Below are positions 30,872 to 57,063 of a DNA stretch of 64,000 bases, piece after piece. The notes below the pieces were generated by a model that made no database searches, had not been told where the DNA came from, and saw only the letters and a list, made by a program, of their open reading frames with translations. A program made the translations under genes and the position numbers. Position 1 is the stretch's first letter; every line of letters begins with the position of its first letter. This stretch comes from Acidobacteriota bacterium (GTDB lineage: Bacteria; Acidobacteriota; Terriglobia; Bryobacterales; Bryobacteraceae): the NCBI GenBank assembly GCA_029776225.1, contig JAKOTR010000008.1:62001-126000 (forward strand). Direction: 5' to 3'.

Positions 30872-33727
30872 TCAGTACTTGAAGCGGAGCGAATAGTCCT
30901 CGGCGGCGCGCGTGAGGTGGGGGCTGTAGAAGGGATCGGCCGCGATGATGTGTTTCCAGTTGTCCCTCATTGCCAGAAGCTCGCCGGGATGCGAGTCCAT
31001 GTCGCGCAGGGTTTTCGAATACGATTCGCGGTGGTAAAGCAGCGCGTGCGGCGTGTACAGGACGCGGTACCCTTTCGCGCCAATCCTCAGGCACAGATCG
31101 ATGTCGTTGAACGCCACCGGAAACAGCGCCTCGTCGAAGCCGCCGACCTCGTGAAACACGCTGGCCGGCACAAGCAGGCACGCGCCGGTGACCGCGCTCA
31201 CGTTGCGGATCACGTCCGGCAGGTCGAAGTAATGGCGCTGGCTGCCGTCCAGGTTCCTGAATCCGTGAGCGCAACACTCGTAGAGGCCCACGACCACACC
31301 CGCGTGCTGGATGCGCCCGCTGGGATAAAGCAGCTTCGCGCCGACCGCGCCCACCTCGGGCCTGGTCCCGAGTTCCATCAGAGCGGTGAGCCAGCCCGGA
31401 GCGATCACCTCCGTGTCGTCGTTCAGGAACACCAGATAGGGCGCGTCGCAGCGGCGCGCGGCCTCGTTATTGAGCGCCGAGTAGTTGAACGGCCAGCTCC
31501 GCATGTCGAGCCACCGCAGCCTGCGCCCGCTCCGGATCCAGGTCTCGGCGTACCGGCGCACGGCGTTGCCCCGCGAATTGTCGATGATGACAACCTCGTA
31601 GTCGGGATAGTCGGTTTTCCCAAAAAGCGACTCCAGGTTGGCCCGGAGCGCGTCCAGCTTGCCGCCGGCGGGAATCAGAATGCTGACCCGCGCGCCGCGC
31701 GGTATCGCATAGCGGACGCGCCACGTTCCCGGCGCCGTGCCCGGCTCGACTGTCGCCCGAACCGCTTCGGCCCGCAAATGGTCTTCGATGGCGCGGCGTG
31801 CCGCGGCCGCGTTTGAAACCCGCCGCGCGGAACGGTGGTAAAGGACCGCGGGCACGTGAACGATTCTGCCGGCGCGGCGCGTGAGGCGCAGCACCAGGTC
31901 GTAATCCTCCGCGCCGTCGTAGTCCTTGCGGAATCCGCCCTCCGAGCGCACCAGCGCGGCCCGCGCCACCAGCAGCCCGCCGATGTAGTTCTGTGAAAGC
32001 AGCAAGTCGGGAGACCAGTCCGGTTTGAAGTACGGCTCGCTGCGGCGCCCCCATTCGTCGATTGAGTCCTCGTCGGAATAGAGGACATCCGCTCCCGGGT
32101 GCGCGTTGAGCGCCCCCACGAGGCGGAGAAGAGCGCCAGGCGCCAGTTCCGCCGTGTCTTCCAGCAGGGCGATGTACTCACCGCCGGCCATCTCCAGCGC
32201 CGCATTCGCCGTCTCGGAGGGGCCCGTGCCCGGAGGCACGCGAGCGATTCGGATGCGGGCGTCCTCGCCGGTGCGCTCGCTCAGAATCCGGTCGATTTCG
32301 GGAGGCTGCGGATCCGCGGCGGAAATGCAGAGTTCCCAGTTCGCATAGCTCTGGGCGCGCACCGAACGGACCGCGCGGCTTACCGCCGCCGCGGGCGCGC
32401 CCGAAAGCGGCAGAATCACGCTCACGAGCGGTTGCAGTTCCAACGTGCCCGGCTCGGGCAGGCGGGGCTCGCACTCCGCGATCCAGCGCTCGTAATCCGA
32501 TGCGAAACCCCTCCCGGCCTCCAGTGAAGCGCTATCGCGGCTGGCGCCTGCCGCCGCCGGCTCCTCACAATCGAGCGTGGTACGGCTATCCGCCGGCTGC
32601 CCGTTCGTGAGCCGGAGAACGAGCCCTCCCAGCGCGCACAGAGTTCGCCAGATGCGGCTTTGAAGAATGGATGTGATTTGCCGGAAGGCCTCCCCGACCT
32701 GCCGCCCGTGCTCGTCCAGCCGCCTCGAAAGGTTTTCGATCCGCGCCGCCACAGTCTCCGCAAAATACCTGCTTCGTTCGAAATCGATCAGAGCGGTCTT
32801 AACGTACCGGCGAAGCTCATCCAGCTCGGCCCGGAGTTCGGAGTCCGAGGCCGGGACCACAGCCGTGCTTGGCGCCGCGCTCCGGCCGCCCGCGGCCAGC
32901 TCTTTGCCGCGGATGGCGATATCGAGCAGCAATCGGCAGACCGGAAGCATGGAATCGGCCGCAAGCGAGGGGCGGCTATCGCGCGGCATCGAGCGGAACG
33001 CATCCAGCGCGGCGGCTGTGTTGCGCTTCGACAGCAGGAAATACGCGCGATAGGAGGGGGCCGCCCAGTCCTCATCAACCGGCCCGTGATTGAAACGCTG
33101 GTTGAGCCCCTCGACAAGTGCGTCGCACCCGGAGCGGTGGAGCGCGTGCTGGGTCATCATCAGCAGCAGCCAGACGTCCGTGTTGCCGCAGTCGAACGAA
33201 GCCGCCGGATAGCCCGTACCGGCAAAGAACCGCTCGATCTGCGCGCGGTCCGGCAGGCCGAAAGTCCGGTGCTCGTCCAGCATGGGGATCGAACCGTGGA
33301 AGTGGAGCGCCAGGAAGTCGGCCAGCATCTTCTCGGCCGTGCGGTTCACTGGGGAGTCGAACGGAAAGGCGACAAGAAGCCCGTCGCGGGTGACGCGCAG
33401 CATTTCCTGCAAAGCGGGCACCCGGTCCCCGTGCGGCATGTGTTCGAGCAGATCGAACGCGGAGACGAGGTCGAAGCTCTCATCGGCAAACGGAAGCCGG
33501 AGGGCGTCGGCGCGGACGTAGTCCGTCAGGCCGTCACCGGGAGCGATGTCGGCAACCACGCTGAAGGAGTCCGGAACCATCTCGCGCGCCAGGGACCGGA
33601 AGCCCTCCCAGAGGACGGGCGTCTTACCGCCCACATCCAGCAGGCGGAGACGGCTCCCTGGCCGGGCGAAGAACAGGCCGGCGCTGCTCAGCAGCCGGTA
33701 ACGCTGGAAAAGGTCGAATAGTTTCAT
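30872..33727 (-). CDS. methyltransferase-coiled coil-GT2-GT2 fusion protein
   Basis: The 951-residue chain has four parts. Residues about 1-200 form a class I SAM methyltransferase (LRLLDVGGKTPVLWEG, then SFDLVSAFDLLEHMPHGD). A helical linker with a coiled coil spans about 290-370 (ELRAELDELRRYVKTALI). Residues about 425-640 are a GT2 domain (PLVSVILPLS, acidic motif YSDEDSID). Residues about 660-915 are a second GT2 domain (VSILIPAGGKLDALRANLE, FLNDDTEVIAPGW, and the WbbL/RfbC-like FDEALFPVAFNDIDLCLRIG). Such fusions build and cap O-antigen-like chains. A perfect TATAAT ends 6 nt before the ATG, consistent with a leaderless transcript. It converges on the GT4 gene and very likely serves the same glycan. 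Confidence 0.9.
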   Translation of the reverse strand: MKLFDLFQRYRLLSSAGLFFARPGSRLRLLDVGGKTPVLWEGFRSLAREMVPDSFSVVADIAPGDGLTDYVRADALRLPFADESFDLVSAFDLLEHMPHGDRVPALQEMLRVTRDGLLVAFPFDSPVNRTAEKMLADFLALHFHGSIPMLDEHRTFGLPDRAQIERFFAGTGYPAASFDCGNTDVWLLLMMTQHALHRSGCDALVEGLNQRFNHGPVDEDWAAPSYRAYFLLSKRNTAAALDAFRSMPRDSRPSLAADSMLPVCRLLLDIAIRGKELAAGGRSAAPSTAVVPASDSELRAELDELRRYVKTALIDFERSRYFAETVAARIENLSRRLDEHGRQVGEAFRQITSILQSRIWRTLCALGGLVLRLTNGQPADSRTTLDCEEPAAAGASRDSASLEAGRGFASDYERWIAECEPRLPEPGTLELQPLVSVILPLSGAPAAAVSRAVRSVRAQSYANWELCISAADPQPPEIDRILSERTGEDARIRIARVPPGTGPSETANAALEMAGGEYIALLEDTAELAPGALLRLVGALNAHPGADVLYSDEDSIDEWGRRSEPYFKPDWSPDLLLSQNYIGGLLVARAALVRSEGGFRKDYDGAEDYDLVLRLTRRAGRIVHVPAVLYHRSARRVSNAAAARRAIEDHLRAEAVRATVEPGTAPGTWRVRYAIPRGARVSILIPAGGKLDALRANLESLFGKTDYPDYEVVIIDNSRGNAVRRYAETWIRSGRRLRWLDMRSWPFNYSALNNEAARRCDAPYLVFLNDDTEVIAPGWLTALMELGTRPEVGAVGAKLLYPSGRIQHAGVVVGLYECCAHGFRNLDGSQRHYFDLPDVIRNVSAVTGACLLVPASVFHEVGGFDEALFPVAFNDIDLCLRIGAKGYRVLYTPHALLYHRESYSKTLRDMDSHPGELLAMRDNWKHIIAADPFYSPHLTRAAEDYSLRFKY

Positions 33728-33784
33728 GGCACCATTATATGCTATCTATGGCTCAGCAGCCGGTAACGCTGGAAAAGGTCGAAT
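33686..33784. repeat. 34-bp perfect direct repeat around the start of the fusion transferase gene
   Basis: Positions 33686-33719, codons 4-14 of the fusion gene, recur exactly at 33751-33784 upstream of its start. The copies are separated by 31 bp that contain the start codon and its TATAAT. The upstream copy reads in a short open frame on the minus strand that ends ETNDRLKSLAFDLFQRYRLL and stops soon after. It could be the tail of a lost upstream relative or a local tandem duplication of the gene's 5' end. Confidence 0.8.
33734..33739 (-). promoter_or_regulatory. perfect TATAAT -10 box, probable leaderless promoter
   Basis: TATAAT on the minus strand lies 6 nt before the ATG at 33727. The predicted transcription start would therefore coincide with the start codon. 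No good -35 hexamer is visible at 16-18 nt. The box sits in the 31-bp spacer between the two copies of the direct repeat. Confidence 0.45.
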
Positions 33785-37248: not shown

Positions 37249-38694
37249 GTGGAACCCGCAAAATTGGAACTCAGCCGCGAGGAGATGCGCGCGTTCGGCT
37301 ACCTCGTGGTGGATACGCTGGTGGAGTATTTTTCCGGTTTACGGGCGGAACCCGCGGCCCGGAAGAGCAGCCGGCAGGAACTCGAATCCCTGCTCCGCGA
37401 GCCGGTTCCCGAGAAGGGGTCGGACCCGGGCGAGCTGGTGCGGCGCCTTTCTGAAACCGTGTTTCGCTCGATGATGCATTTAGATCACCCGCGCGATTTC
37501 GCGTTCGTCCCCAGCCCGTCCAACTTCGTCAGCGTAATGGCGGACGCGCTGGCCAGCGGGTACAACGCGTTCGTCGGCTCGTGGTTCAGCGGTTCGGGCC
37601 CGGCGCAGATCGAGCTGGTGACGATCGACTGGCTGCGGCAGCTCTGCGGGTTGCCGGAAACCGCCGGAGGCCTGTTCGTGAGCGGGGGCTCGATGGCCAA
37701 CCTGACGGCCCTGGCCGCCGCAAGGCACGCGCGTCTGAAATTCGACTTTTCGCACGCGGCCGTTTACTGCTCCGACCAGACGCACTCCTCGATCGAGCGC
37801 GCGCTGCGCGTTCTGGGTTTCGCTCCGGCTCAGCTCAGAAAGCTGCCCTCCGACGAAGGGTTCCGCCTGCCGCTGGCCGCGCTCGAGCGCGAGGTGGCCG
37901 CCGACCGGGCTCTCGGCCGGCTCCCCTTCTGCGTGATCGCCAATGCAGGGACCACAAACACGGCCGCGGTCGATCCGCTCGAGGAACTCGCCCGCTTCTG
38001 CGCCCGGGAGAAGCTCTGGCTGCATGTGGACGGCGCTTACGGCGCCGCCGCGGTGATCTGCGACGAAGGACGCCGGGCGCTGGCGGGGCTGGAGCTGGCG
38101 GACTCGGTTTCGCTCGATCCGCACAAGTGGCTGTTCCAGCCGTTCGAGATCGGCTGCGTGCTGCTGCGCGACGCGAGCCTGCTGAAGAACGCGTTCCGTA
38201 TTATGCCGGAGTATCTTCGCGACGTTTACCGTTTGCCGGGGGAAGTCAATTTCTGTGACTACGGCATCCAGCTCACGCGCGGCTTCCGGGCGCTGAAGCT
38301 GTGGCTTTCGCTGAAAGTTTTCGGGCTGGGGGCGTTCCGCGAGGCGGTGGCGCGCGGACTCGAACTGGCGCGAGTAGCCGAGGCGAGGCTGCGCGAAGCC
38401 GGCTGCTGGGAGATCGTGACGCCGGCGCAGATGGGCATCGTATCGTTCCGCTATTTTGAGCCCGGCCGGAGCGAAGAAGAACTCGACGCCGCAACCGAGC
38501 GCGCCGCCGCCGGCATCACCGCCAGCGGCTTCGCGGCCCTGACCACAACCACGCTCCGCGGCCGCACCACCCTCCGCCTCTGCACCATCAACCCGAGGAC
38601 GACTGAGGAGGACATCCGTGAAACCGTCGCCCGGCTTGCCAAGTATGCGCGGGAGGGGGGCGGGGAGCGGACAGGGGACGGGAACCCACGGTAA
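37249..38694 (+). CDS. PLP-dependent group II decarboxylase (aromatic amino acid type)
   Basis: The 481-residue enzyme belongs to the pyridoxal-dependent decarboxylase family that includes aromatic-L-amino-acid, glutamate and tyrosine decarboxylases. The PLP lysine is K293 in LDPHKWLFQPFEIG. The cofactor-contacting HVDGAYGAAA lies about 28 residues earlier and VSGGSMANLTALAAAR near residue 145. The start is GTG with AAGG at good spacing. It makes an amine and CO2 from an amino acid. The substrate cannot be fixed from motifs, but the overall sequence is nearer the aromatic amino acid group than the glutamate group. Nothing next to it suggests a pathway. Confidence 0.92.
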   Translation: MEPAKLELSREEMRAFGYLVVDTLVEYFSGLRAEPAARKSSRQELESLLREPVPEKGSDPGELVRRLSETVFRSMMHLDHPRDFAFVPSPSNFVSVMADALASGYNAFVGSWFSGSGPAQIELVTIDWLRQLCGLPETAGGLFVSGGSMANLTALAAARHARLKFDFSHAAVYCSDQTHSSIERALRVLGFAPAQLRKLPSDEGFRLPLAALEREVAADRALGRLPFCVIANAGTTNTAAVDPLEELARFCAREKLWLHVDGAYGAAAVICDEGRRALAGLELADSVSLDPHKWLFQPFEIGCVLLRDASLLKNAFRIMPEYLRDVYRLPGEVNFCDYGIQLTRGFRALKLWLSLKVFGLGAFREAVARGLELARVAEARLREAGCWEIVTPAQMGIVSFRYFEPGRSEEELDAATERAAAGITASGFAALTTTTLRGRTTLRLCTINPRTTEEDIRETVARLAKYAREGGGERTGDGNPR

Positions 38695-38939
38695 GTCGGC
38701 GGCCTCTGTGCGCTTATAAGAGTTCTACCTTCCAGCGTGCTCTGGCCGCTACGGCCAACTTCTCATTTGCGCGTGATCCAGACCGGAACCAACGGTCACC
38801 CGACACCTTGCCAGCCGTCGTCCGATCTGCCTCATGGGAATGCAGAAGGCGCCAAAATGGACCAGAGTTCAGAGGGTCGTATGAGACAGAGTAGTCAGGG
38901 CCGGCTTCTAAGATCAACCAAGGATAAGATCACTGGTTG

Positions 38940-39210
38940 ATGACTAACAGTGGAGAAATGCCCAGCCCCGAGTTGTCAAGAAGCATCGCGCAACTTCGCG
39001 CGATCCTGTGCGAACGCATGGACCTGATTAGGGATCTGATCGGTGTGCTGATCGCAAACCCCTCTTGCGGCATCGGTGCGACATGAGTCGACGCCTGTTC
39101 CTGATAAAGCCGTCCAGGTTCTACCGCTGATGCTGCAGGCTCTTGGCTCCTCAACTAATACTATTGCGCACCTCTCTGACATGCCAGGGATGCAGACTGG
39201 GCGATTGAAT
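38940..39210 (+). pseudogene. frameshifted, truncated hypothetical gene
   Basis: A 48-residue frame starting at ATG 38940 (with ELSRSIAQLRAILCERMDLI inside) stops at 39086. The reading then seems to continue in another frame with VPDKAVQVLPLMLQALGSS and NTIAHLSDMPGMQT before ending without a natural terminus. The two pieces have protein-like helical character and a plausible order. I do not recognise the family. One shift near 39080 and loss of the C-terminus would explain it. Confidence 0.4.
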
Positions 39211-39278
39211 GGGCCGAAAGAAGGCCCCCGCCGCGCTGCTCCTGCCCCAAGCCCCTCACTTGAACCCTTCCGCCCGCA

Positions 39279-39309
39279 GGCAACATCATTTTCATCGGCG
39301 ACCTGAAGG
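39279..39309 (+). pseudogene. 31-bp fragment of a TonB-dependent receptor gene
   Basis: This stretch matches 51215-51245 of the intact receptor gene in 30 of 31 bases and, in frame, encodes GNIIFIGDLK. Sequence on both sides is unrelated to the receptor. It directly abuts the methyltransferase relic. Confidence 0.75.
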
Positions 39310-39610
39310 TCTCGGCAAGAGACAAGCCAGCCGAACTGAGCAGGCAGATCGCTTCTTCTCAGTCAACAAGTCCATGATGCGTTTGGATGCGATCGAAGAC
39401 GCTCTCCTTGGCGTGGCCACCCAGCCAATGTCGATCACCCGCTCGAGGCCCGCACGCGGCCGCCTGGTTTCAAGACTCGCCGGATGTCAGCTGCCACTTC
39501 ACGCCTTGAATTTTTCGGCAGGTGACGCCGCACCATGGCGGCGAGCGCCACATCGAAGCGAGCCCCCACTAAGTCGCTACCTTCGGCAAAAGACGCCGCA
39601 TCTATCTGAT
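39308..39610 (-). pseudogene. decayed class I methyltransferase
   Basis: On the minus strand, RFDVALAAMVRRHLPKNSRR and VAADIRRVLKPGGRV align with FDVVLSTLMFHHLPKSSRP and MAAEVRRVLKPGGRV of the intact methyltransferase at 54670-55311. After a short insertion and frame change, KESVFDRIQTHHGLVD, an in-frame stop, and EEAICLLSSAGLSLAET continue the alignment to the homologue's KKSIFDYLHGSHRVDLEEVV region. The N-terminal half with the SAM-binding GCGTG loop and the last ten or so residues are missing. A shared DNA block around AAACCAGGCGGCCGCGTG supports common origin. Confidence 0.8.
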
Positions 39611-39686
39611 TTCCAAGCTCAAACAGTGAAGCGGGTTGACTTTGCTGAAATGAGTATGGTAAATGCGTCGACAGAGGGTTTCGCTT

Positions 39687-42600
39687 ATGAGAAGTCATCA
39701 TCGACGTATAAGCCGTATAGTCACGTTTGCATCGCTTCTAGTATTTGCAACAGCGAGTTTCGCTCAACAGATCACGGGCCGGTTGGTTGGCACCGTGCTC
39801 GATGCCTCGGACGCCGGTATTCCGGGCGCCCAGGTGACCGCTACGAATCAAAACACCGGCATCAGCACAGTTACAACTACGGACGCTGCCGGCAACTACA
39901 GTTTCCCAACCCTTCCCGCCGGAACCTACACCATCCGTGCCGAGGCGGCCGGCTTCCGCGCCGCTGTCGCCCCTGACACGCAGATCAACGTCGGCCAGAC
40001 TCGCCGCGTTGACATGAAGCTTGAGGTCGGCTCGCTCGCCGAAACGGTCGAGGTTCAGGCGGTCGCGCCGCTCGTACAAAGCACCACCTCCGAAATTGCT
40101 CAGAACATTGCGACGCAGCAGATACAAACGCTGCCTCTGAATGGCCGCATCTTCTCCCAGGTCGTTAACCTGGTGCCCGGAGCAGTTCCTGCCGGCCACG
40201 GCGACGCCCCCGAATCGGCTTCCGGCGCGGGCGCTCGCACGAGCATTATGTCCAGCGTGAATGGCGTTAACTTCTCCGGAACCAGCTATACTCTTGATGG
40301 CGTGGCGAATGCCGAACCCCTGAACGCGTTCATCAATATCGCCCCTCCGATCGAAGCCATCGAGGAAGTCCACATTCAAACCTCCAACCCGAGCGCCGAA
40401 TTCGGCACTTTTGGCGGCGCTGTCGTGAACGTCACGCTGCGCTCCGGCACAAACGATTTTCACGGCTCCCTTTTCGAGTACCTCCGCAATGACGCTTTGA
40501 ATGCACGCAGTTTCTTTGCGAGTTCGAAGGCCCCGTGGAAGACCAACCAGTTCGGCGGCACACTGGGCGGTCCCATTCTGAAGAACAAGGCATTCTTCTT
40601 CGGCGATTATCAGGGCCTGCGGCTGCGCCAGGGCAATTCCTACTTGATCAACGTCCCGACAGCCGCCATGCGGCAAGGCATTCTGCTGCCGGAAGAGAGT
40701 TTCGCGACCATCTATGACCCGCTCTCCGCTTCGGAATCCGCAAACGTTCAGCCTTTCCCGAACAACCGCATCCCACGCGAGCGGTGGGACAGGGTGACCT
40801 CACAGGTGTTGGACTTGTGGCCTCAGCCAAACCGCGAGCCGTCGCGCCCCGGACCGTTCCAGAACTACTTTGAGAACGTGAGCAACAAGCAGACAGTCGA
40901 CGCGTTTGACATCAAGGTCGACTATCAGTTTGAGCGCTGGGGCCGGCTGTTCGTGCGCGAATCTTACGCCGCTCGCGATCTCGATGTCACGCCGCCGGCG
41001 AACCAGTTCATGAACGCGGATCCCGACTCAACCTCCCGCAACCACAATGCGGTGATCGGGTACACGCTGCCGATCTCGCCCGTCACTCTGAATGATCTCC
41101 GGATCGGCTTCAACCGTTTCGACACCTTCCACTTCGGGCAGGACTACGGCATCAACAAGAACAACGAGCTCGGTATCAAGAACGGCAACCTTGCCGCCTT
41201 CCCCGAATCGCAAGGAATCGCCAACTTCGGCGTTAGTCCTTTGTACAGCCTCGGCGCACCCGGCTGGACGAATGGCCAGCGCCTGGCTAACACCTACGAG
41301 ATCACAGACAGCATAGCCTTGATTCGCGGCTCGCACAGTTTCAAGCTGGGCGCCGACATCCGGAGAATCGAGGCGACACTGACCAACCCGCAGGATACCG
41401 CACGCGGGTATTTCGGCTTCGGCCGCGATATGACCAGCCAAGACGGTGTGGATGGCGCCGAATTCGCCAGTTTCCTGCTTGGCTATCCCAGCACCATCAT
41501 TCGCAGTCTGGTTAACACACGGCCGTCCGTGCGCACCACGCAGGGTGGTGTGTATTTCCAGGACGATTACCGCGTAACTCGCAACTTGACGCTGAATATG
41601 GGGATCCGCTGGGATATCTTCACCACTCCGGTCGAAAAGCATAACCGGCAGGTAAACTACAACCCGGTTACGGGCAAATACAATGCGGCATCGGACAACA
41701 ACCGCGGTCCCAACGTCGACACATACTATGGTAACTTCGCTCCGCGCTTCGGGTTCGCGTATTCACCCGACAGCGGGCGTACCGCGATTCGCGGCGCTGT
41801 CGGCTACAGCTACTTCAGTTACAACTACGGGGCGACCGGCGGCACCCTGGAGCGCAATTACCCGCTGTTTCAAACGTTCCAGGTCACGCCGCCAGTTTCC
41901 TACCGCCCCTTTTCAAAGGTGGATGTCGACGGGCTTCCGAATTTCGTGCCCGCTGCGCTGGCGCCGGAAATCGATCCTCCAGCCGGTATCCAGCCCTACT
42001 ACATCCCCAAGAACTTCCGCCCCGCCAACATCCTCATGTACAACTTCGGCGTACAACGCCAACTCACGCTGGACGATTCCATAGAAGCTGCGTACGTGGG
42101 GACGAAGGGCTCACACTTGTTCCGCAACCGCAACATCAATACGCCGTTGTCGCCTGGGCCGGGAGCTGTTGACCCGCGGCGTCCGTACTATTCTGTATCG
42201 CCGCAGGTTCAGAGCATCATCGAGCGGGGTTCCAACGGCGACTCCAGATATCACTCGTTCCAATTGAAGTACAACCGCCGGTTTGCACGTGGGTTCCAGG
42301 CACTCTTTTCCTACACGCTCGCCAAGGCCGAGGACAACACCTCAGTCTTTTGGGTGTGGGATGACAAGCTGAACTGGGCCCCCATGAGCATTGATTTCCG
42401 GCATCTCGCCTCGATCAGCTGGATTTACGAGCTGCCGTTTGGCCGTGGCCGGGCCTTCCTGAGCGATGCCTCTCGCGCCCTCGATTTGCTCATCGGCGGC
42501 TGGAACCTCAACGGCATCACGACGCTGCGCACCGGCGCGCCGCTCTCCGTGTCTGTGGCGAATAACCTTCTGAACACCGGCACCGGAAACCGCGCCGTGA

Positions 42601-42932
42601 AGACCTGCAAGGAAGTGGGCTATCCCAAGAAGGTCGAGCAGTGGTTCGACACGAGCTGCTTCAAAGACCCAGAAGAACCTTACACCTTCGGGGACGCGAA
42701 ACAGGGCGCGGTCCGGGGTCCCGGCCTCGTCAATTTCGACCTGTCCCTGGCGAAGGACTTCCAATTCGCCGAACGGCACCGGGTCGAGTTCCGTGGCGAG
42801 TTTTTCAACGCCTTCAACAACCCGCATTTCAGCAACCCGAACACCAGCAGGTCTTCGGGCAACTTTGGCCGCATCACGAGCACCACTCTCACACCTCGTG
42901 AGATTCAGCTCAGCCTGCGGTACCGTTTCTAG
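39687..42932 (+). CDS. Oar-like TonB-dependent receptor with carboxypeptidase-regulatory-like domain
   Basis: The 1081-residue outer-membrane protein has a signal peptide ending ATASFAQ. A carboxypeptidase-regulatory-like beta-sandwich follows at about residues 27-110 (GRLVGTVLDASDAGIPGAQV, LPAGTYTIRAEAAGF). A plug domain contains LPLNGRIFSQVVNLVPG and SNPSAEFGTFGGAVVNV. The long beta-barrel ends in the aromatic strand LTPREIQLSLRYRF. The start at 39687 has GAGGG nine bases upstream; an ATG 24 nt earlier is an alternative. Proteins of this type are greatly expanded in Solibacter-like genomes and are thought to import large carbohydrates or secreted products. Codon choice is less C-biased than in the second receptor. 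It stands alone among relics, with a 10-bp-stem hairpin just behind it. Confidence 0.93.
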   Translation: MRSHHRRISRIVTFASLLVFATASFAQQITGRLVGTVLDASDAGIPGAQVTATNQNTGISTVTTTDAAGNYSFPTLPAGTYTIRAEAAGFRAAVAPDTQINVGQTRRVDMKLEVGSLAETVEVQAVAPLVQSTTSEIAQNIATQQIQTLPLNGRIFSQVVNLVPGAVPAGHGDAPESASGAGARTSIMSSVNGVNFSGTSYTLDGVANAEPLNAFINIAPPIEAIEEVHIQTSNPSAEFGTFGGAVVNVTLRSGTNDFHGSLFEYLRNDALNARSFFASSKAPWKTNQFGGTLGGPILKNKAFFFGDYQGLRLRQGNSYLINVPTAAMRQGILLPEESFATIYDPLSASESANVQPFPNNRIPRERWDRVTSQVLDLWPQPNREPSRPGPFQNYFENVSNKQTVDAFDIKVDYQFERWGRLFVRESYAARDLDVTPPANQFMNADPDSTSRNHNAVIGYTLPISPVTLNDLRIGFNRFDTFHFGQDYGINKNNELGIKNGNLAAFPESQGIANFGVSPLYSLGAPGWTNGQRLANTYEITDSIALIRGSHSFKLGADIRRIEATLTNPQDTARGYFGFGRDMTSQDGVDGAEFASFLLGYPSTIIRSLVNTRPSVRTTQGGVYFQDDYRVTRNLTLNMGIRWDIFTTPVEKHNRQVNYNPVTGKYNAASDNNRGPNVDTYYGNFAPRFGFAYSPDSGRTAIRGAVGYSYFSYNYGATGGTLERNYPLFQTFQVTPPVSYRPFSKVDVDGLPNFVPAALAPEIDPPAGIQPYYIPKNFRPANILMYNFGVQRQLTLDDSIEAAYVGTKGSHLFRNRNINTPLSPGPGAVDPRRPYYSVSPQVQSIIERGSNGDSRYHSFQLKYNRRFARGFQALFSYTLAKAEDNTSVFWVWDDKLNWAPMSIDFRHLASISWIYELPFGRGRAFLSDASRALDLLIGGWNLNGITTLRTGAPLSVSVANNLLNTGTGNRAVKTCKEVGYPKKVEQWFDTSCFKDPEEPYTFGDAKQGAVRGPGLVNFDLSLAKDFQFAERHRVEFRGEFFNAFNNPHFSNPNTSRSSGNFGRITSTTLTPREIQLSLRYRF

Positions 42933-42946
42933 CTTCAAGATGGCGG

Positions 42947-42970
42947 CGCTCCCGGTCTCCCCGGGAGCGC
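42947..42970 (+). terminator. hairpin after the first receptor gene
   Basis: GCGCTCCCGG and CCGGGAGCGC form a perfect 10-bp stem with a 4-nt loop, 15 bp after the receptor stop. There is no T-run, so this may be a Rho-assisted or transcript-stabilising structure. Confidence 0.55.
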
Positions 42971-43002
42971 TGCTCTCCGCACCGCGTTCGCTGGGAACCC
43001 TG

Positions 43003-43065
43003 TCACTCGCTCCCGGACATCGTCAGCCTCCAGTCCAGCTCGTTGAGGAAATGATTGTCTCGCCG
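43003..43065 (-). pseudogene. 3'-terminal fragment of an era gene
   Basis: Read on the minus strand, the last 20 codons before a TGA give RRDNHFLNELDWRLTMSGSE. The intact Era at 57064-57981 ends RQDKQFLNELDWRLTMAGSE, so 16 of 20 residues agree and the stop coincides. The upstream sequence is not Era-like. It is therefore a detached tail, not a gene. Confidence 0.82.
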
Positions 43066-43152
43066 CAGTGGTGCCCCTTCCGCATCGGTGCAATTCTCTT
43101 CAGCCACCCGAAGCTCTCTTCAGTCCGCTCCCTGGTTCCCTGACCACGCCCC

Positions 43153-45246
43153 TCACCGGAACCCCTCGGCCAGCAGGATGTCCGCGTTGGAGGGGTCCAG
43201 CCGCACCACCAGCATCGACTTGCGGTCCGGCGCCAGCGAGAAGGGCCCGATGCCGATCGGCAGGATCGGCTCCGGATAGTCCGCCACCAGCCGCACGCGG
43301 CGCGTCTTCCAATCCATATAGAAGAGCGATTGCTGCACCGGCGCCTCCGGCCGCGTACCCAAATAATAAATCCCATCCTCCGACAAAGCCCAGCACGACG
43401 TGCAGTAGGGCACCAGCCCGGAAAGCACCCGCTCCACTTCACCCGTCGCCACGCGCACATGCGAAAGCGTCGTGTCGGCCGGCTCGCGCACGAAATACAC
43501 GTACTCGCCGTCGGGCGAAACGTCCAGCGAAAGCCCGCGGACGTGTGTCACCACCTGGGCGCGGCCGCCCGCCGCGGGGTAGCGCAGGATCGACCCCTCC
43601 GGCGCCGCCGCATAGATCCACTTCCCGTCAGGGGAAAACACCGGATGCACGCCGCGCGCCCCGAACGGCCGTACCCGCCAGCGCCCGGCTTCCTCCTCGG
43701 CCAGGAACATCTCCGTCGTGGCCGCGTCGTTGAACACCAGCCGCCGGCCGTCCGGCGACCACCGCGGCACCGACGGGCGCCCCTTGAGCGACGTCACCTG
43801 CACCGGCTGGCTGCCGTCGGCCTGGCACACCCAGATCTGTTCCTCACCCGTCCGGTCGGACCGGAACGCCACCCGCCGCCCGTCCGGCGAATACTGCGGC
43901 GAAGCGTCCTGCCCCGACGACGCGGCGATCCGCTGCCATTCCACCTTGGGCCCGAGCGTCAACCTCCAGATGTTCGGATCGTTCTGTACAAGCGAGTAAA
44001 CAAGCCGCCCCGCCCGCTGCGAATGCGAAAACTGAATTGGAAACTCGCCGTAAATCGCCGTCGGCGCCGGATCCTTCCCCTGCGCCAGCCGCCAGATCCG
44101 GTACGAGCCGTCTCGCGACGAGCCGGCCAGCAAGCCCTTCTCCGTCCAGTCCACGCCGGTCACCATCTGCGAATCCGCCGTCCACTGCTGCGGCGTCCCG
44201 CCCGTCACCGGCACCGTGAACACCTCCTGGTAGCTCCGGTGGAAGGCGCGGATGAAGGCGATCGTCTGCCCGTCGGGCGAAAACCGCGGCGCCACGTCGC
44301 CGATGATCAGCTCCGCCGGCTGCGTCAGCCGCCGCTTCTCGCCCGTCTTCAGATCCACAAGGAAAATGGAGAGCGGCTCGCTCAGCGAAGGCGTGTCGTC
44401 CACGGCGAGCATCGTCCCGTCCGGCGACCAGTCCAGATGGGAGTACGCAAGTCCGAAGCGCGTCGGCTGCACCGGCGCCACCACGTGCGGTTCCCCGCCC
44501 TCCGCATCCAGAATCACGATCTCCCCCGAGGAAATGCCGAATCGCAGACACGCAATCCGCCGCCCGTCCGGCGACCACGCGGGACTCGACCACGAATAGC
44601 CGGACACGGACACCTGCCGCGGCGTGGCCTCACCCAGCTTCTGCACCCAGATCCCCGGCAGCGCGCGCTCATCCTCCTGCCACACGAAGGCCACCGCGCT
44701 TCCATCGGGCGAAATGGCCGGCTGGTACTCCTTTCCCGCAAGCCGCGTCACCGGCGTCACAGCCGACGAAGGTTCCGGCTCGCCCCGCCGGATCACCGCC
44801 AGCAGAAGCATCACGACACCTGCCAGCGCCAGAATTCCGGCCGCCGCCCGCCACCACGGCCGCCTCCCAGCCGCCGGCGCCGCTCCCGCAGCCTCCGGCC
44901 CTGGGGCGCCAGCCCGTTCCGGCCGCGCCACCGCCACCGGCCCCAGCAGCCGGTATCCTCGCCCGGGGAACGTCTCGATATAGGCTGGCTCGCCCGGCGC
45001 CGCCGCAAGCGTCTTCCGGATCACGGCCACGTTCTGTGCCAGATTCGCCTCGTCTACCACCCGGTCCGGCCAGACCGCCGCCAGCATTTCCTCCTTGGTC
45101 ACGACCTCCGGGGATCGCGAAGCCAGCACGATCAGCGTCTCTACGGCCTTGCGGGTCAGATGCACCGGCTGTCCGCCGCGGAACAGTACTTTGGCGGCAG
45201 CGTCCAGCCGGAAGGGGCCGAAACTGTAAACCGGATGCGTTTGCAA
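43153..45246 (-). CDS. CadC-like membrane one-component regulator with TolB-type propeller
   Basis: The 697-residue protein joins an OmpR/PhoB-type winged helix (residues about 8-105, with TRKAVETLIVLASRSPEVVT and the recognition region NLAQNVAVIRKTLA, then YIETFPGRGYRLLG) to a single membrane helix at about 135-158 (AAGILALAGVVMLLLAVI). A periplasmic TolB/PD40 propeller follows, with repeats such as SPDGRRIACLRF, SPDGQTIAFIRA and SPDGKWIYAAAP. The design lets an external ligand steer DNA binding without a kinase. The frame opens with TTG and no better start exists ahead of the winged helix. It is divergent from the GH106/receptor pair, which it may control. Confidence 0.9.
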   Translation of the reverse strand: MQTHPVYSFGPFRLDAAAKVLFRGGQPVHLTRKAVETLIVLASRSPEVVTKEEMLAAVWPDRVVDEANLAQNVAVIRKTLAAAPGEPAYIETFPGRGYRLLGPVAVARPERAGAPGPEAAGAAPAAGRRPWWRAAAGILALAGVVMLLLAVIRRGEPEPSSAVTPVTRLAGKEYQPAISPDGSAVAFVWQEDERALPGIWVQKLGEATPRQVSVSGYSWSSPAWSPDGRRIACLRFGISSGEIVILDAEGGEPHVVAPVQPTRFGLAYSHLDWSPDGTMLAVDDTPSLSEPLSIFLVDLKTGEKRRLTQPAELIIGDVAPRFSPDGQTIAFIRAFHRSYQEVFTVPVTGGTPQQWTADSQMVTGVDWTEKGLLAGSSRDGSYRIWRLAQGKDPAPTAIYGEFPIQFSHSQRAGRLVYSLVQNDPNIWRLTLGPKVEWQRIAASSGQDASPQYSPDGRRVAFRSDRTGEEQIWVCQADGSQPVQVTSLKGRPSVPRWSPDGRRLVFNDAATTEMFLAEEEAGRWRVRPFGARGVHPVFSPDGKWIYAAAPEGSILRYPAAGGRAQVVTHVRGLSLDVSPDGEYVYFVREPADTTLSHVRVATGEVERVLSGLVPYCTSCWALSEDGIYYLGTRPEAPVQQSLFYMDWKTRRVRLVADYPEPILPIGIGPFSLAPDRKSMLVVRLDPSNADILLAEGFR

Positions 45247-45450
45247 GACGTTACCCAGCGGATTTTAGGAATTTTTCAGAAACTTCTCAATGCCCCATCA
45301 TGGCATAAAACCGCCATTTCGGCGCATCTTAGGGGACGGCTCCAGTAGGGCGCGGTTGTAAACGCTCCCTGCAGAGCACTGATACATCACTGATCAATTT
45401 GGCGGTGGGAGTCCAAGGGACCTCCCCGCGGCGGACTAAGGATGCGCTCG

Positions 45451-48087
45451 ATGTGGAGAGGCTGGGTCCTCGCACTGATCCCGCTGGTGGCGGCAAACGC
45501 TGCCTCTATAGATGATGTAGCGAAAGGCTTGCAGGAGCCGCCCCCGGAAGCCCGCATTATGATGCGGTGGTGGTGGTTCGGCCCCGCCGTCACGCACCCG
45601 GAGCTGGCCCGCCAGCTCGAAGCGATGCGGGCGGCCGGAATCGGCGGCGTGGAGATCCAGCCTGTCTACCCGCTCGCGCTGGACGATCCGGCCAGGGGAA
45701 TCCGCAACCTCCGGTTCCTCTCGCCGGAGTTTTCCAGCGCCCTGCGCTTTACGGCCGAAACCGCCCGCCGTCTCGGGCTTCGCGTCGACATGACGCTCGG
45801 CAGCGGCTGGCCCTTCGGCGGCCCCACGATTCCAAGGGAACTGGCCGCCCCCAGGCTGCGCGTCGAGCCTGCCAACCGCCCCCCTCAACTGCGTTGGGAC
45901 GAACGCGTCCTGCGCGAATTCCCGCAGCAGAACCTCCGCTTCATTGAAAGCCGCACCGGCCAGATGGTGAAGCGGGCGGCGGTCGGCGCCGAAGGGTTCG
46001 TCTTCGACCACTACAGCCGCGCGGCGCTGGACCGCTATCTCGAAACCACCGGCGGCCCCCTGCTGCGCGCGTTCGGCCCCCTCAAGCCCTACGCCGTCTT
46101 CTGCGACAGCCTGGAAGTGTTCGGCTCGGACTGGACTCCGGACCTGCCCGAAGAGTTCCTCCGCCGCCGCGGATACGACCTGATGCCGCTGCTGCCCGTG
46201 CTCGTCGGCGACTGGGACGAAGACAAGGCCCGCGTGCGCCATGACTGGGCGCTGACTCTCTCCGAACTGGCCGAAGAGCGCTTCCTCCAGCCGCTGGCGG
46301 AATGGGCCCGCCGCAACGGCGTGAAGCTCCGCGTGCAAACCTACGGCACTCCGCCGGTAACGCTTGCCAGCCAGCGCTACGTCGACCTCGCCGACGGCGA
46401 GCAGACCCAATGGCGGCAGCTCAGCGCTGCCCGCTGGGCCTCCAGCGCGAACCATATCCTCCGCCGGCCGGTGACCGCCTCCGAGACCTGGACCTGGCTT
46501 CACTCGCCTTCCTTTGCGGCCACGCCGCTGGACATCAAGGCCGAAGCCGACATCCACTTCATCCAGGGCATCAACCAGCTCATCGGTCACGGCTGGCCCT
46601 ACTCGCCCAAGCAGGCCGGCAAGCCAGGCTGGGCCTTCTATGCGGCCGCCGCCCTGAACGACCTCAACCCCTGGTGGCCCGTCATGCCCGACCTCGCGCT
46701 CTACCTCCAGCGCGTGAGCTGGCTCCTTCGCCAGGGCGAGCCGGTTGCCGACCTGCTGCTCTACCTTCCGGTCGCCGACATCCGCTCGCGCTTCTCCGCA
46801 GCGAGCGGCCAGGTCTCCATCGACCGCGGCGCGCACGAGGTGCTCGGCGACGCCGTCATCCCCCAGATCCTCGATGCTGGATACAACTTCGACGCCGTCG
46901 ATGACGGCTTGCTCGAAGAGGCGCTCGCGGGCCGCCGCTACCGCGGCATCGTGCTGGCCAACGCCGAACGCATCGAGGCCGGCGTGCTGGAACGGCTGGC
47001 CGCGTTTGCGCGCGAAGGCGGCGCCGTCTTTGTCGCCGGACGCCGCCCGCGGCTGTCGCCCGGCTATCTCCATAGCGCCGAAAACGACCGGCGCGTGCAG
47101 GCCGCCGCCGCCCGGCTGCTCTCCGGACCCGGCGTCCATGTGGTCGAAGACATTGCCCGCCTCGGCGAGGCCCTGCGCCGGGTTATCGAGCCGCCTGTCG
47201 GCTGGACGCCCGCTACCGGCGCGATCGCCTACGCGCACAGAAAACTCGCAAATGGCGAAGTCTTTTTCCTCGCCAACACCGGAAATACGCCCTGGCGCGG
47301 CCGCCTGCGCTTCCGCGCCGCGGCCCAGCCCGCCTTGGCGTGGGACCTGCTCTCGGGCGAAAAACACGAATTCCGCGGAGAAATCGAGATTCCCGCTTAC
47401 GGTTCGCTTGTCTTGCTGTCGGGCGGGCCTGCCAGTCCGGCGCCCCCGCGCAAGCTGCCCGTCCGCGAGCTGGATCTCAGCACGGGCTGGGACGTCACCT
47501 TCCTCGAAACCGGCCGCAAGGCCCGGTACGAGAGACTTCGCTCCTGGACCGAGGACGAAGAGACGCGCTTCTATTCCGGCGTCGCGGCTTATGAGAAAAC
47601 GATCCAGGTAGACCCCGCCTCGCTCCGCGCCTGGCTCGAGTTCGGCCCTGTCAAGCCCCTGGAGCCCGCCGCGCAGCGGCAGCCGGGCATGCGCGCCTGG
47701 GTCGACGCGCCTGTGCGCGACGCGGCCGTCGTTTACGTCAACAAACGCCGCGCCGGCAGCGTCTTCACCCCTCCCTACCGGATCGATCTCAGCGGCTTCC
47801 TTCAGCCGGGCGAAAACCGCCTGCGGATCGAAGTCGCCAACACGAACCTGAACCTGCTGGCGAAGCTCGGCGAGCCGGACTACCGTGTCCTCGCCGCCGC
47901 CTACGGGGAACGGTTCCAGATGCAGGATATGCGGAACCTGCAGCCTGCTCCCAGCGGGCTGCTCGGCGCCGTCAAGCTCGTCGTCTGGCGGCAGCCAGAC
48001 GGCATTACCTCGAACAGTGGGAGTATCTCAACCGCGCCGCAAAGCGGGCCGCGCGCTCGCGCCGGCGGCGCCAATCCAACCAGGTGA
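45451..48087 (+). CDS. secreted GH106-type alpha-L-rhamnosidase
   Basis: The 878-residue product has a signal peptide (MWRGWVLALIPLVAANA) and resembles glycoside hydrolase family 106. Typical features are MMRWWWFGPAVTHPELARQL near the N-terminus, LRVDMTLGSGWPFGG near residue 115, and CDSLEVFGSDWTPDL near residue 225. A middle barrel and a C-terminal beta-sandwich of sugar-binding type (GFLQPGENRLRIEVANTNLN) follow. The family removes terminal L-rhamnose from plant pectin (rhamnogalacturonan) and other glycans. The ATG at 45451 has TAAGGA eight bases upstream; an ATG 9 nt earlier overlaps that site and is less likely. The receptor gene begins 10 nt after its stop, so uptake of the released or remaining oligosaccharide is the likely theme. 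Confidence 0.85.
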   Translation: MWRGWVLALIPLVAANAASIDDVAKGLQEPPPEARIMMRWWWFGPAVTHPELARQLEAMRAAGIGGVEIQPVYPLALDDPARGIRNLRFLSPEFSSALRFTAETARRLGLRVDMTLGSGWPFGGPTIPRELAAPRLRVEPANRPPQLRWDERVLREFPQQNLRFIESRTGQMVKRAAVGAEGFVFDHYSRAALDRYLETTGGPLLRAFGPLKPYAVFCDSLEVFGSDWTPDLPEEFLRRRGYDLMPLLPVLVGDWDEDKARVRHDWALTLSELAEERFLQPLAEWARRNGVKLRVQTYGTPPVTLASQRYVDLADGEQTQWRQLSAARWASSANHILRRPVTASETWTWLHSPSFAATPLDIKAEADIHFIQGINQLIGHGWPYSPKQAGKPGWAFYAAAALNDLNPWWPVMPDLALYLQRVSWLLRQGEPVADLLLYLPVADIRSRFSAASGQVSIDRGAHEVLGDAVIPQILDAGYNFDAVDDGLLEEALAGRRYRGIVLANAERIEAGVLERLAAFAREGGAVFVAGRRPRLSPGYLHSAENDRRVQAAAARLLSGPGVHVVEDIARLGEALRRVIEPPVGWTPATGAIAYAHRKLANGEVFFLANTGNTPWRGRLRFRAAAQPALAWDLLSGEKHEFRGEIEIPAYGSLVLLSGGPASPAPPRKLPVRELDLSTGWDVTFLETGRKARYERLRSWTEDEETRFYSGVAAYEKTIQVDPASLRAWLEFGPVKPLEPAAQRQPGMRAWVDAPVRDAAVVYVNKRRAGSVFTPPYRIDLSGFLQPGENRLRIEVANTNLNLLAKLGEPDYRVLAAAYGERFQMQDMRNLQPAPSGLLGAVKLVVWRQPDGITSNSGSISTAPQSGPRARAGGANPTR

Positions 48088-48097
48088 AAGGAAAGCT

Positions 48098-51000
48098 ATG
48101 AAGTCTCGCATTGTGTGGATCGTTGCTCTCTGCTACCTGCTCGCTTCCGCGGGCATGGCGCAGGATCCGCGTGGCTCCATCACGGGCACCGTCACCGACC
48201 CGTCAGGCGCGGTGGTGCCCAACGCCAACGTGGAAGTCATCAACAAGGCCATGGGCACCCGGATCACTCTGAAGACGAACGAGGCCGGCGTGTACAACGC
48301 GCTGTATCTGATTCCGGGCCGCTACCAGGTCGTCGTCGAGATCCCCGGCTTCAAGAAGGCCATCCACGACGACATCGAGGTGCGTATCGACGACCGCATC
48401 GCCGTCAACGTCCAGCTCGAAGTCGGCGTCGCCGAGCAGACCGTCACCGTCACCGGCGAAACTCCGCTGCTGTCCACCGAAACCGCTTCGACGGGAACCG
48501 TGGTCGACTCACGCAGGGTCACCGAGCTGCCAATCCCCCACGGCAACCCGTACTTCCTCATCAACCTTGCCACCGGGGTCTCCTTTACTCGCGACGCCCG
48601 GCTCGACCGCCCCTTCGAACCCACCCACATCGTCGGCTACGCCATTGACGGCACCCGCGCCAACCGCAGCGACGTCACCATCGACGGCGCAGTCAGCACC
48701 GCCACCGCCAACCCCGGCGAGGTCATCGCCTCCTACGTGCCTCCGGCCGACATTGTCCAGGAATTCAAGGTCCAGACGGCCACCTTCGACGCCCAGTTCG
48801 GCCATACCGAAGGCGGCGTCACCAACATCAGCCTCAAGTCCGGCAGCAACGAGTTCCACGGCACCGGCTACTACACCAACATGACGCCGTCGCTGTTCGC
48901 CAACGACTTCTTCGCTAATCGCGACAAAATCCCGCTGGCCGACTTCTACTACCACCGCTACGGCGCCTCCCTCGGCGGCCCCATCATCCTGCCGAAACTC
49001 TACAGCGGCCGCAACCGCACGTTCTTCCAGTGGGGCATGGAGGGCATCAAGGAAGGCCGCCCGCGCAACAATGGCACTCCCACCGTGCCCACCGAGGCCA
49101 TGAAGAACGGCGACTTCTCCGCGCTGCTCAACGTCTCCAGCAGCTTCCAGATCTACAACCCCTGGACGCGCCGTCCCGCCGCCGGCGGCCGCTTCCAGTC
49201 CGATCCGTTCCCGGACAACATTATCCCGGCGTCCCTGTTCAACCCCGTCGCCAAGAAGGTCCTCGACACTTACTACCCGAAGCCCCTGCAGGCCGGCAAC
49301 CCCGACGGAACGAACAACTACCTCCGGCCGGAGTTGATGGAGACCGCCGATTACCTGTCCAACACCATCCGCGTCGACCACAACATCACGGAGAACAACC
49401 GCATGTTCTTCCGCGTGAGCTGGTATGACCGCGATAGCTGGTACAACGACTACTTCGACAACGCCGCCACCGGCCAGTCCTTCTGGTTCATCGCCCGCTC
49501 GGCCGTCGTCGACGACGTCTGGACGCTAAGCCCCACCGTGGTGCTCAACGCCCGCTACGGCTACAACCGCTTCATCCGCCGCCAGGACGGCAATCCCCTG
49601 GGCAATGGCTTCGACCTCACCTCGATCGGCTTCCCCGCCTCGTACAACAACGCCATTTCGCCCGACATCCGCCGCTTCCCGCGCTTCGACATCACCGGCT
49701 ACCAGGGCACCGGCTTCGGGGGCGAAAACCGCCCCAACGACACCCACAACGTCACCGCCGTGCTCACCAAAATCTTCTCGCGGCATTCCCTCAAGGCCGG
49801 CATGGAGTTCCGCGCCTACCGCGAAACCAGCGTCTTCTTCGGCAACGAACAGACTGGCCGCTTCATCTTCGACGCGACCTACACGCGCGGCCCCCTCGAC
49901 AACTCGCCCGTCGCGCCCAACTCCCTCGGCCAGTCCGTCGCGGCCTTCCTGCTGGGCATCCCCACGGGCTCCAGCTACGCCGCCGTGCGTGACAGCTACG
50001 CCGAGCAGTCCGTCTCCTGGTCCTGGTTCGTTCAGGACGACTGGAAAGTCAGCTCCCGGCTCACGCTGAACCTCGGGCTCCGCTGGGAGTGGGACGGCCC
50101 GCTCACTGAGCGCTTCAACCGCAGCGTCCGCCGTTTCGACGCCAGCTACACCCAGCCGTTCGAAGAGGCTGCCCGCGCCGTTTACGCCAACAATCCCACG
50201 CCGGAAGTTCCGGTCTCCGAGTTCACCACCCGCGGCGGCCTGACCTTTGCCGGCGTCAACGGCGAACCCCGCTCTCTCTACGAAACCCCGAGGAACAACT
50301 TCATGCCCCGCTTCGGCTTCGCCTACCAGATCGATCCGAAGACCGTCATGCGCGGCGGCTACGGCATATTCTTCGGCTTCCTCGGCCAGCGCCGCGGCGA
50401 CGTCATCCAGACCGGCTTCAGCCGCAATACGCCGTTCATTCCCACGCTCGACGGCTACACCTTCATCCGCACGCTGTCGGATCCGTTCCCGGAAGGCCTT
50501 TTGATGCCGGTCGGCGCCGCCGACGGCTATCAGACCTACGTCGGCAACTCCGTTTCGTTCTTCAACGAGAAACCGCTGCGGCCCTACATGCAGCGCTGGC
50601 AACTCGGCTTCCAGCGCACCATCGGCGCTGGCTACGTGGCTGAACTGAACTACGTCGGCAACCGCGGCACGCACATCGAGATCAGCCAGAACTTCAACGC
50701 CACGCCGCTCGAATACCTCAGCCACAGCCTGCTGCGGGACAACGAACGCATCAACTATCTCACGCAGAACCTGCCCAACCCGTTCCTCGGCCTGATGCCC
50801 CCCGGCGCGGTGTCGGCCTTCACCGGCGCCAATATGGCGCGCGAACGGCTGCTGCGGCCCTTCCCCCACTTCGACGCGGTCAACGCCTCCCGCTTCGACG
50901 GCTACTCCTGGTACCACGCTCTCCAGGCCAGCCTCGAAAAGCGCTTCTCGCAAAGCTACATGCTGGGCGTCAGCTACACCTTCTCGAAGTTCATGCAGGC

Positions 51001-51601
51001 CACCGAGACGCTGAACACCAACGACCCGCGCCCCGTGGAAGTCATCAGCGACCTCGACCGCCCGCACCACCTCGTCGTCAACTCCATCTGGGAGACGCCG
51101 TTCGGCAGAGGGCGGCGCTGGGGTTCCAACCTGCCTTTCCTCGCTGACCTCTTCCTCGGCGGCTGGCAGATCTCCGGCGTCTACACCTTCCAGAGCGGCG
51201 CGCCGATCAACTTCGGCAACATCATCTTCATCGGCGACCTGAAGGACATCCGGCTGCCGAGCGACCAGCGCACCGTCGAACGCTGGTTCAACGTCGACGC
51301 CGGCTTCGAGCGGCGCTCGGCCTTTCAACTGGACCGCAACGTCCGCTGGTTCCCGCCGCGCTTCAGCTTCCTCCGCGCGCATGGGATCAGCAACTTCGAC
51401 CTTGCGCTCACCAAGAACACACGGCTGTTCAATGAGAAGTTGAACGTGCAATTCAAGGCCGAGTTCCTCAACGCCATGAACCACCCGCAGTTCCCGGCGC
51501 CCAACACCACGGTCACGTCCGCGCAGTTCGGCCAGGCCATCGCCTCCAATCAGGCGAACTACCCGCGCCGGACCCAGTTGATGGCCAAGTTCATCTTCTG
51601 A
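48098..51601 (+). CDS. Oar-like TonB-dependent receptor paired with the GH106 enzyme
   Basis: The 1167-residue outer-membrane receptor has a signal peptide ending GMAQ. A carboxypeptidase-regulatory-like domain lies at about residues 23-105 (GSITGTVTDPSGAVVPNANV), and a plug contains ATFDAQFGHTEGGVTNISL. The beta-barrel ends with YPRRTQLMAKFIF. The frame is open 213 nt upstream within the GH106 gene, but AAAGGAA before this ATG and the signal peptide fix the start. Third codon positions are almost uniformly C or G, more so than in the receptor at 39.7 kb. It is co-transcribed with GH106, and an intrinsic terminator follows, so the pair forms a closed two-gene unit. Confidence 0.94.
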   Translation: MKSRIVWIVALCYLLASAGMAQDPRGSITGTVTDPSGAVVPNANVEVINKAMGTRITLKTNEAGVYNALYLIPGRYQVVVEIPGFKKAIHDDIEVRIDDRIAVNVQLEVGVAEQTVTVTGETPLLSTETASTGTVVDSRRVTELPIPHGNPYFLINLATGVSFTRDARLDRPFEPTHIVGYAIDGTRANRSDVTIDGAVSTATANPGEVIASYVPPADIVQEFKVQTATFDAQFGHTEGGVTNISLKSGSNEFHGTGYYTNMTPSLFANDFFANRDKIPLADFYYHRYGASLGGPIILPKLYSGRNRTFFQWGMEGIKEGRPRNNGTPTVPTEAMKNGDFSALLNVSSSFQIYNPWTRRPAAGGRFQSDPFPDNIIPASLFNPVAKKVLDTYYPKPLQAGNPDGTNNYLRPELMETADYLSNTIRVDHNITENNRMFFRVSWYDRDSWYNDYFDNAATGQSFWFIARSAVVDDVWTLSPTVVLNARYGYNRFIRRQDGNPLGNGFDLTSIGFPASYNNAISPDIRRFPRFDITGYQGTGFGGENRPNDTHNVTAVLTKIFSRHSLKAGMEFRAYRETSVFFGNEQTGRFIFDATYTRGPLDNSPVAPNSLGQSVAAFLLGIPTGSSYAAVRDSYAEQSVSWSWFVQDDWKVSSRLTLNLGLRWEWDGPLTERFNRSVRRFDASYTQPFEEAARAVYANNPTPEVPVSEFTTRGGLTFAGVNGEPRSLYETPRNNFMPRFGFAYQIDPKTVMRGGYGIFFGFLGQRRGDVIQTGFSRNTPFIPTLDGYTFIRTLSDPFPEGLLMPVGAADGYQTYVGNSVSFFNEKPLRPYMQRWQLGFQRTIGAGYVAELNYVGNRGTHIEISQNFNATPLEYLSHSLLRDNERINYLTQNLPNPFLGLMPPGAVSAFTGANMARERLLRPFPHFDAVNASRFDGYSWYHALQASLEKRFSQSYMLGVSYTFSKFMQATETLNTNDPRPVEVISDLDRPHHLVVNSIWETPFGRGRRWGSNLPFLADLFLGGWQISGVYTFQSGAPINFGNIIFIGDLKDIRLPSDQRTVERWFNVDAGFERRSAFQLDRNVRWFPPRFSFLRAHGISNFDLALTKNTRLFNEKLNVQFKAEFLNAMNHPQFPAPNTTVTSAQFGQAIASNQANYPRRTQLMAKFIF

Positions 51602-51623
51602 CCTCAAGCGACCCTCTGCTCCG

Positions 51624-51664
51624 CCCCGCCCCGGCACGGACCCGTCCGGGGCGGGGTAATTTTT
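51624..51664 (+). terminator. intrinsic terminator of the GH106/receptor operon
   Basis: CCCCGCCCCGG (51624-51634) and CCGGGGCGGGG (51646-51656) form an 11-bp GC stem. Further pairing is possible within the loop (ACGG with CCGT). TAATTTTT follows with a run of five T's. This is the only terminator in the window with all classical parts. Confidence 0.85.
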
Positions 51665-54077: not shown

Positions 54078-54137
54078 GCTGTTCAATCTACATGTCGTGA
54101 TCTGGTCTCACAACGGCGTTACGATGGAAGCGGACGC

Positions 54138-54605: not shown

Positions 54606-54669
54606 CGATAGCTGCTTCGATCCAACATGGAAGCGGCCGCCGCCGCATGATGTTTTGGATCTCCAGGCA

Positions 54670-56624: not shown

Positions 56625-56676
56625 AGCCCCTCCGGACAGAAAATGCGCCCTCCTGCAGGCACATTCTACTTCTTCT

Positions 56677-57035: not shown

Positions 57036-57063
57036 TTGGAGCCGCGGAGAGACCCTCTTCCCC

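Follow-up and report, generated by a model that had tools for sequence, protein, structure and literature searches.

Genomic islands that sit at the 3' ends of conserved genes carry a direct repeat of the gene end on either side of an accessory block. Tandem amplification in bacteria is covered by a review that describes, around the sdrM efflux gene, units of 7-13 kb whose junctions show either microhomology or no homology (PMC11721125). For the acidobacterium Candidatus Solibacter usitatus Ellin6076, whose genome is rich in paralogues, a genome study reports, where it deals with paralogues, widespread small-scale duplications and mobile elements near divergent paralogues (PMC3174227). The locus analyzed here lies in a 64-kb stretch of DNA (contig C13:62001-126000, hereafter the window; all positions without a contig name are those of the window) of a 5.18 Mb draft genome with 115 contigs and 97.7% completeness. 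Its many receptors of the family type described below suggest that this genome, too, is that of a member of the Acidobacteriota. The interval 38695-43152 separates an intact decarboxylase gene from an intact minus-strand winged-helix/beta-propeller regulator gene (Table 1). The sequence-only reading had noticed in it relics of a receptor gene (+), a methyltransferase gene (-) and the era tail (-), in the order and strand of the intact genes at 51-57 kb, and had proposed either a decayed segmental duplication with an intact, differently biased receptor in its middle or a hotspot for insertion and decay of cargo at the era 3' end.

A DNA search of the organism's own genome with 38600-43300, in which the best 40 of 56 first-look candidates were scored, gave five non-self matches at E ≤ 0.001, three of them inside the window. 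The methyltransferase piece 39323-39564 matched 54741-54970 (E 4.8e-21) and was, over 39308-39564, about 70% identical to the intact gene; the era tail matched the end of intact era (E 5.9e-16), the similarity beginning exactly at the stop codon; and the receptor piece matched an internal 31 bp of the receptor gene, not a gene end (E 3.3e-6). All three matches lay on the query strand and kept the gene order of the intact segment, and the genome search thus confirmed the order and strand first read from the sequence. The fourth match joined 43063-43132 to contig C2 and corresponds to a transposase scrap, and the fifth, to contig C21, came from coding DNA of the intact 39.7-42.9 kb receptor. A pattern search for the receptor piece, in which any letter was accepted at its one variable base and up to three further mismatches were tolerated, found it at just these two places in the genome, and a permissive genome search with 38695-39662 (25 of 25 candidates scored) had its next best match elsewhere at E 0.096. 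No other locus of the own genome matched the relics better than the neighboring segment did. A comparison of the window with itself agreed with this: of its 10 non-self pairs at E ≤ 0.01, three connect 39-43 kb with 51-57 kb in a collinear manner, no other pair of stretches being connected by three matches, and a further, weaker anchor was found at 39247-39280. The chance of collinear order on a single strand is 1/24 for three pieces and 1/192 for four; a stronger argument than order is that the three best hits fall within one adjacent 6 kb stretch of a 5.18 Mb genome.

Table 1. Features of the relic region and of the segment beside it, in window positions; "copy" refers to the proposed duplication
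Feature	Position	Strand	Evidence
PLP-dependent decarboxylase, intact; left boundary of the relic region	37249-38694	+	PF00282, E 1.5e-72
Unassigned sequence from the decarboxylase to the first relic piece	38695-39246		Best other own-genome match E 0.096
Probable relic of the 3' end and stop codon of the winged-helix/beta-propeller gene	39247-39280	-	28/34 vs 43144-43177
Receptor-gene relic, internal 31 bases	39279-39309	+	30/31 identical to 51215-51245
Methyltransferase relic, part of the 3' half, frameshifted, with a stop	39308-39564	-	61/241 differences vs 54727-54970
Intact outer-membrane receptor inside the decayed copy	39663-42932	+	PF25183, E 3.1e-238
era relic: stop codon and last 20 codons	43003-43066	-	57/64 vs 57064-57127
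DDE transposase gene scrap at the junction	43062-43157	-	Protein and DNA similarity
Winged-helix regulator carrying beta-propeller repeats, intact; intact copy's left end	43153-45246	-	PF00486, PF07676
Intact GH106-type rhamnosidase gene	45442-48087	+	PF17132, E 4.8e-61
Intact receptor, source of the 31-base relic	48095-51601	+	PF25183, E 3e-198
Intact methyltransferase, source of the methyltransferase relic	54670-55341	-	PF13649, E 4.7e-31
yceI pseudogene directly preceding era, frameshifted and lacking its 5' part	56684-57032	-	DNA matches to relatives; translations by eye
Intact era, right end of the intact copy	57064-57981	-	PF01926, PF07650 (KH_2)

The weaker anchor resembles the last codons and the stop of the intact regulator gene. 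Against a target of 121 bases at this gene end (43133-43253), its score of 22 was reached by none of 207 same-strand and none of 217 opposite-strand control windows, and a score of 20 by two of the 207 and none of the 217, these real windows overlapping by half; with the query cut at 39278, none of 500 dinucleotide shuffles reached 20. Against the full 8.1 kb slot the match was not significant, a score of 20 being reached by 7/500 shuffles and, among real windows, by 13/92 on the same and 21/109 on the opposite strand. Because the small target was picked after the match had been seen, we regard 39247-39280 as a probable relic of the regulator 3' end, weaker than the other three anchors. This piece, the receptor piece and the methyltransferase piece follow one another with successive overlaps of 2 bases and no filler. 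No scraps of the rhamnosidase, acyltransferase-like, glyoxalase, pirin or yceI genes were detected in 38695-39246, 39565-39662 or 42933-43002, and 38695-39246 was absent among the matches listed from 61 genomes, with up to four candidates scored per genome. The 64-kb window contained no tRNA genes, which were checked as integration sites; at 33686-33784, two identical 34-base direct repeats were observed with starts 65 bases apart.

The methyltransferase piece, the longest of the relics, differed from the intact gene at 22/80, 17/80 and 22/81 sites of codon positions 1, 2 and 3, respectively. Among its 78 full codons, 33 were identical, 12 carried silent changes and 33 carried residue-changing ones, one of these to a stop. 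The gaps in the alignment shift the frame, and in the FHHLP motif of the intact protein the F and the first H are altered in the relic, this first H being retained in all four outside homologs aligned. Because the differences are spread evenly over codon positions and come with a stop and frameshifting gaps, this piece decayed as a dead gene without selection on the protein, and not as one of two diverging working genes. Over the same columns, the G+C content was 0.606 in the relic and 0.560 in the intact gene (window mean, 0.637), with 32 AT-to-GC and 21 GC-to-AT differences. In the era tail, four of the seven changes alter a residue, too few to judge protein constraint, and the single difference in the receptor piece is at a third position, the piece being too short for such a judgment. 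When the differences of the methyltransferase, era and receptor pieces were pooled, 26 of 69 were at third positions, with no excess, although the intact genes would be expected to have contributed silent changes there. The divergences of the pieces (1/31, 7/64, 6/34 and 61/241) were not homogeneous (chi-square P = 0.005), a comparison to be read with the fact that short pieces are recognizable only if well preserved, which biases their divergence downward; it is possible that the pieces are of different age. The recognizable remains amount to under 0.4 kb (370 aligned sites).

At the right end of the interval, the era tail is directly followed by the transposase scrap, and this by the stop of the intact regulator at 43153. 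Residues 303-334 of a relative's transposase, a protein with the domains PF01609 and PF05598, matched the scrap at 56% (E 0.007); at the DNA level the scrap was 77% to C2:49961-50030 of the own genome (E 5.1e-7) and 83% to contig C4 of genome G034 (E 9e-10), and the 24-residue scrap alone gave no Pfam match. Elsewhere in the own genome, C5:87785-87910, C21:639561-639686, C32:52692-52817 and C62:162382-162507 resemble the transposase at 55% over its first 42 residues. Because the C21 match stops 7 bases before the end of that contig (639693 bases), insertion-sequence copies may have broken the assembly there. Only 57064-57981 gave a full-length era match in the own genome. The yceI pseudogene beside it lacks about the first 60 codons and is frameshifted, as judged by eye against a 176-codon gene of genome G029 (PF04264, YceI); it adjoins an intact pirin gene, and in G029 pirin and yceI are neighbors and both intact.

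Collectively, these data are best explained by a decayed head-to-tail tandem duplication, about 14 kb long, in which deletions have taken away nearly all of the left copy, and we consider this reading likely. It narrows the segmental duplication proposed earlier to a tandem copy. The head-to-tail layout follows because the era tail of the left copy directly precedes the intact regulator and the left end of the relics resembles the end of that regulator. The chromosome would once have carried two copies in this arrangement, each running from the regulator 3' end (now at 43153) to the last 20 codons of era (57064-57127). The right copy, joined to intact era, would have been retained, and the left copy, being redundant, would have shrunk through a series of deletions whose ends shared little or no homology, until the regulator tail, the receptor scrap, the methyltransferase scrap and the era tail remained in their original order. 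An unrelated outer-membrane receptor gene would then have a place in this scheme as a newcomer to the gap between the methyltransferase and era scraps. We infer that one event made the duplication and that transposase sequence took part at the joint, as well as the relative timing of the deletions and the receptor insertion.

The receptor at 39663-42932 is itself not a product of the duplication, and its sequence marks it as an unrelated gene. It was 27% identical to the receptor at 48-51 kb, and its GC3 was 0.745 vs 0.907, which bears out the observation that an intact receptor of different bias occupies the middle of the relics. Relatives with 67%, 54% and 53% identity were found in 3/60 other genomes at E ≤ 1e-200, with up to 12 candidates scored per genome, and the best of them (67%), in G034, a genome of another genus, lies there between different ORFs, as judged by eye. 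We considered this receptor as the surviving member of a duplicate pair and discarded the idea on account of the 27% identity and the 67% relative in another genus.

Next, we looked at the segment in related genomes. The methyltransferase 54670-55341 was found in none of 120 other genomes of the family at E ≤ 1e-40 (24 candidates scored per listed genome, some of the genomes being incomplete). The best of 35 outside loci was a relative 53% identical at the protein level in an alphaproteobacterial MAG, and the own genome gave 27 methyltransferase matches, the gene itself and the relic included. An origin of the relic from another methyltransferase paralog or from a recent transfer was discarded, since the relic DNA matches the neighboring gene only and the best outside locus reaches 53%. 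Among four genomes searched, G032 has a 74% relative of the receptor at 48-51 kb, which lies beside a relative of the regulator (PF00486 and PF07676); this 19 kb stretch, inspected for ORFs of 180 codons or more, showed no era, nor were the 31 receptor bases found in it with up to three mismatches. In G002, relatives of the GH106 gene and of the regulator are adjacent on a 19 kb contig on which no era was seen. Two congeners, 88% and 77% complete, were compared. In one of them, G001, PhoH, a YbeY-like ORF (by eye), a CorC-type gene and era stand in line, and on this 15.7 kb contig no segment genes were seen after era. Neither a relative with an undecayed double copy nor one in an intermediate state was found, the sampled congeners being these two incomplete genomes. 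We infer that, in this genome's lineage, the segment first came together next to era and was duplicated afterwards. The glyoxalase-family region 53636-54116 showed 84-87% identity to sequences of three other genera of the family, with two places in G010 (up to four candidates scored per genome). Since the other long matches listed for 51602-57127 were less similar, this suggests that the glyoxalase-family gene has spread recently.

Other histories could give a similar layout. If the homologous segment of a related strain had been integrated by one crossover, a foreign copy would have come to lie beside the native one in the same head-to-tail order and could afterwards have decayed; the uneven divergence of the pieces could then reflect a donor that was already different, and the residue-changing differences of the era relic (four of seven) would be less surprising, the last era codons of congener G001 differing too. 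A divergent functional donor should, however, differ mainly at third positions, and the methyltransferase relic shows 22, 17 and 22 differences at the three positions; moreover, no donor is known, in keeping with the negative search for the methyltransferase in the 120 genomes. We regard this explanation as unlikely, with the reservation that integration from a nearly identical donor cannot be told apart from duplication.

Somewhat less probable again is the use of the era 3' end as an integration site, where an island now at 43.1-57.0 kb would, on inserting, have left the era tail doubled as flanking direct repeats, with other cargo decaying in the vicinity. The 64-base direct repeat (57/64), which starts exactly at the era stop and flanks 14 kb, fits this, as do the truncated yceI beside era and the lack of methyltransferase hits in the other family genomes sampled; for the era repeat and the truncated yceI alone, the hotspot alternative raised earlier is conceivable. 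The receptor and methyltransferase scraps to the left of the unrelated receptor nevertheless stay unexplained by it. A Pfam scan revealed no recombinase among the seven main proteins of the interval, and the 107-codon ORF 51784-52104 showed no Pfam family and no recombinase, a lost integrase being conceivable; the regulator/receptor pair of G032 and the regulator/rhamnosidase pair of G002 also occur in 19 kb stretches where no era was seen. The hotspot is, hence, less well supported than the duplication. Least probable of all, in our judgment, is that break repair at a fragile intergenic site picked up short pieces of the chromosome independently of one another, their order being coincidental. 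Such capture would account for the flush joints with 2-base overlaps, the unequal divergence of the pieces and the transposase scrap at the same place; what speaks against it is that the three best genome matches come from one adjacent 6 kb stretch, in order and on one strand, an order and strand that alone would arise by chance once in 24 for three pieces.

Returning to the duplication reading, its significance lies in what it says about loss. Duplications in bacteria are common and mostly vanish without a trace, and the flush scraps make the loss readable here, so that the case can serve as an example for measuring the deletion of redundant DNA. It also shows that a known segment can have its graveyard in a gene-poor stretch next to a receptor gene. 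The understanding of any gene is unchanged by the finding. It is possible, though on balance we doubt it, that duplicates in these genomes are generally erased by serial near-blunt deletions that keep scraps in order, so that lost tandem duplications could be read systematically from intergenic DNA, with this locus as an instance joined at transposase sequence and with a new receptor inside the dying copy.

When set against the known systems, the locus differs from genomic islands at gene 3' ends in that no recombinase was recognized and three or four collinear scraps are present instead of one repeat; a keyword search found no open-access paper linking the era gene, an integration site and a genomic island, an absence that means little. 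The Ellin6076 study counts surviving paralogs, the word "pseudogene" does not occur in its main text, and where it deals with paralogs it does not treat fragments of lost duplicates (PMC3174227). The likeness is closest to bacterial tandem duplication followed by loss of a copy, with which the locus shares a multi-gene segment, direct orientation and adjacent copies. The sdrM units, as the review presents them, are young and amplified under selection, whereas the present copy is old, retains about 0.4 kb of its 14 kb in recognizable form, and encloses another gene. The present case is a fresh example of a known process.
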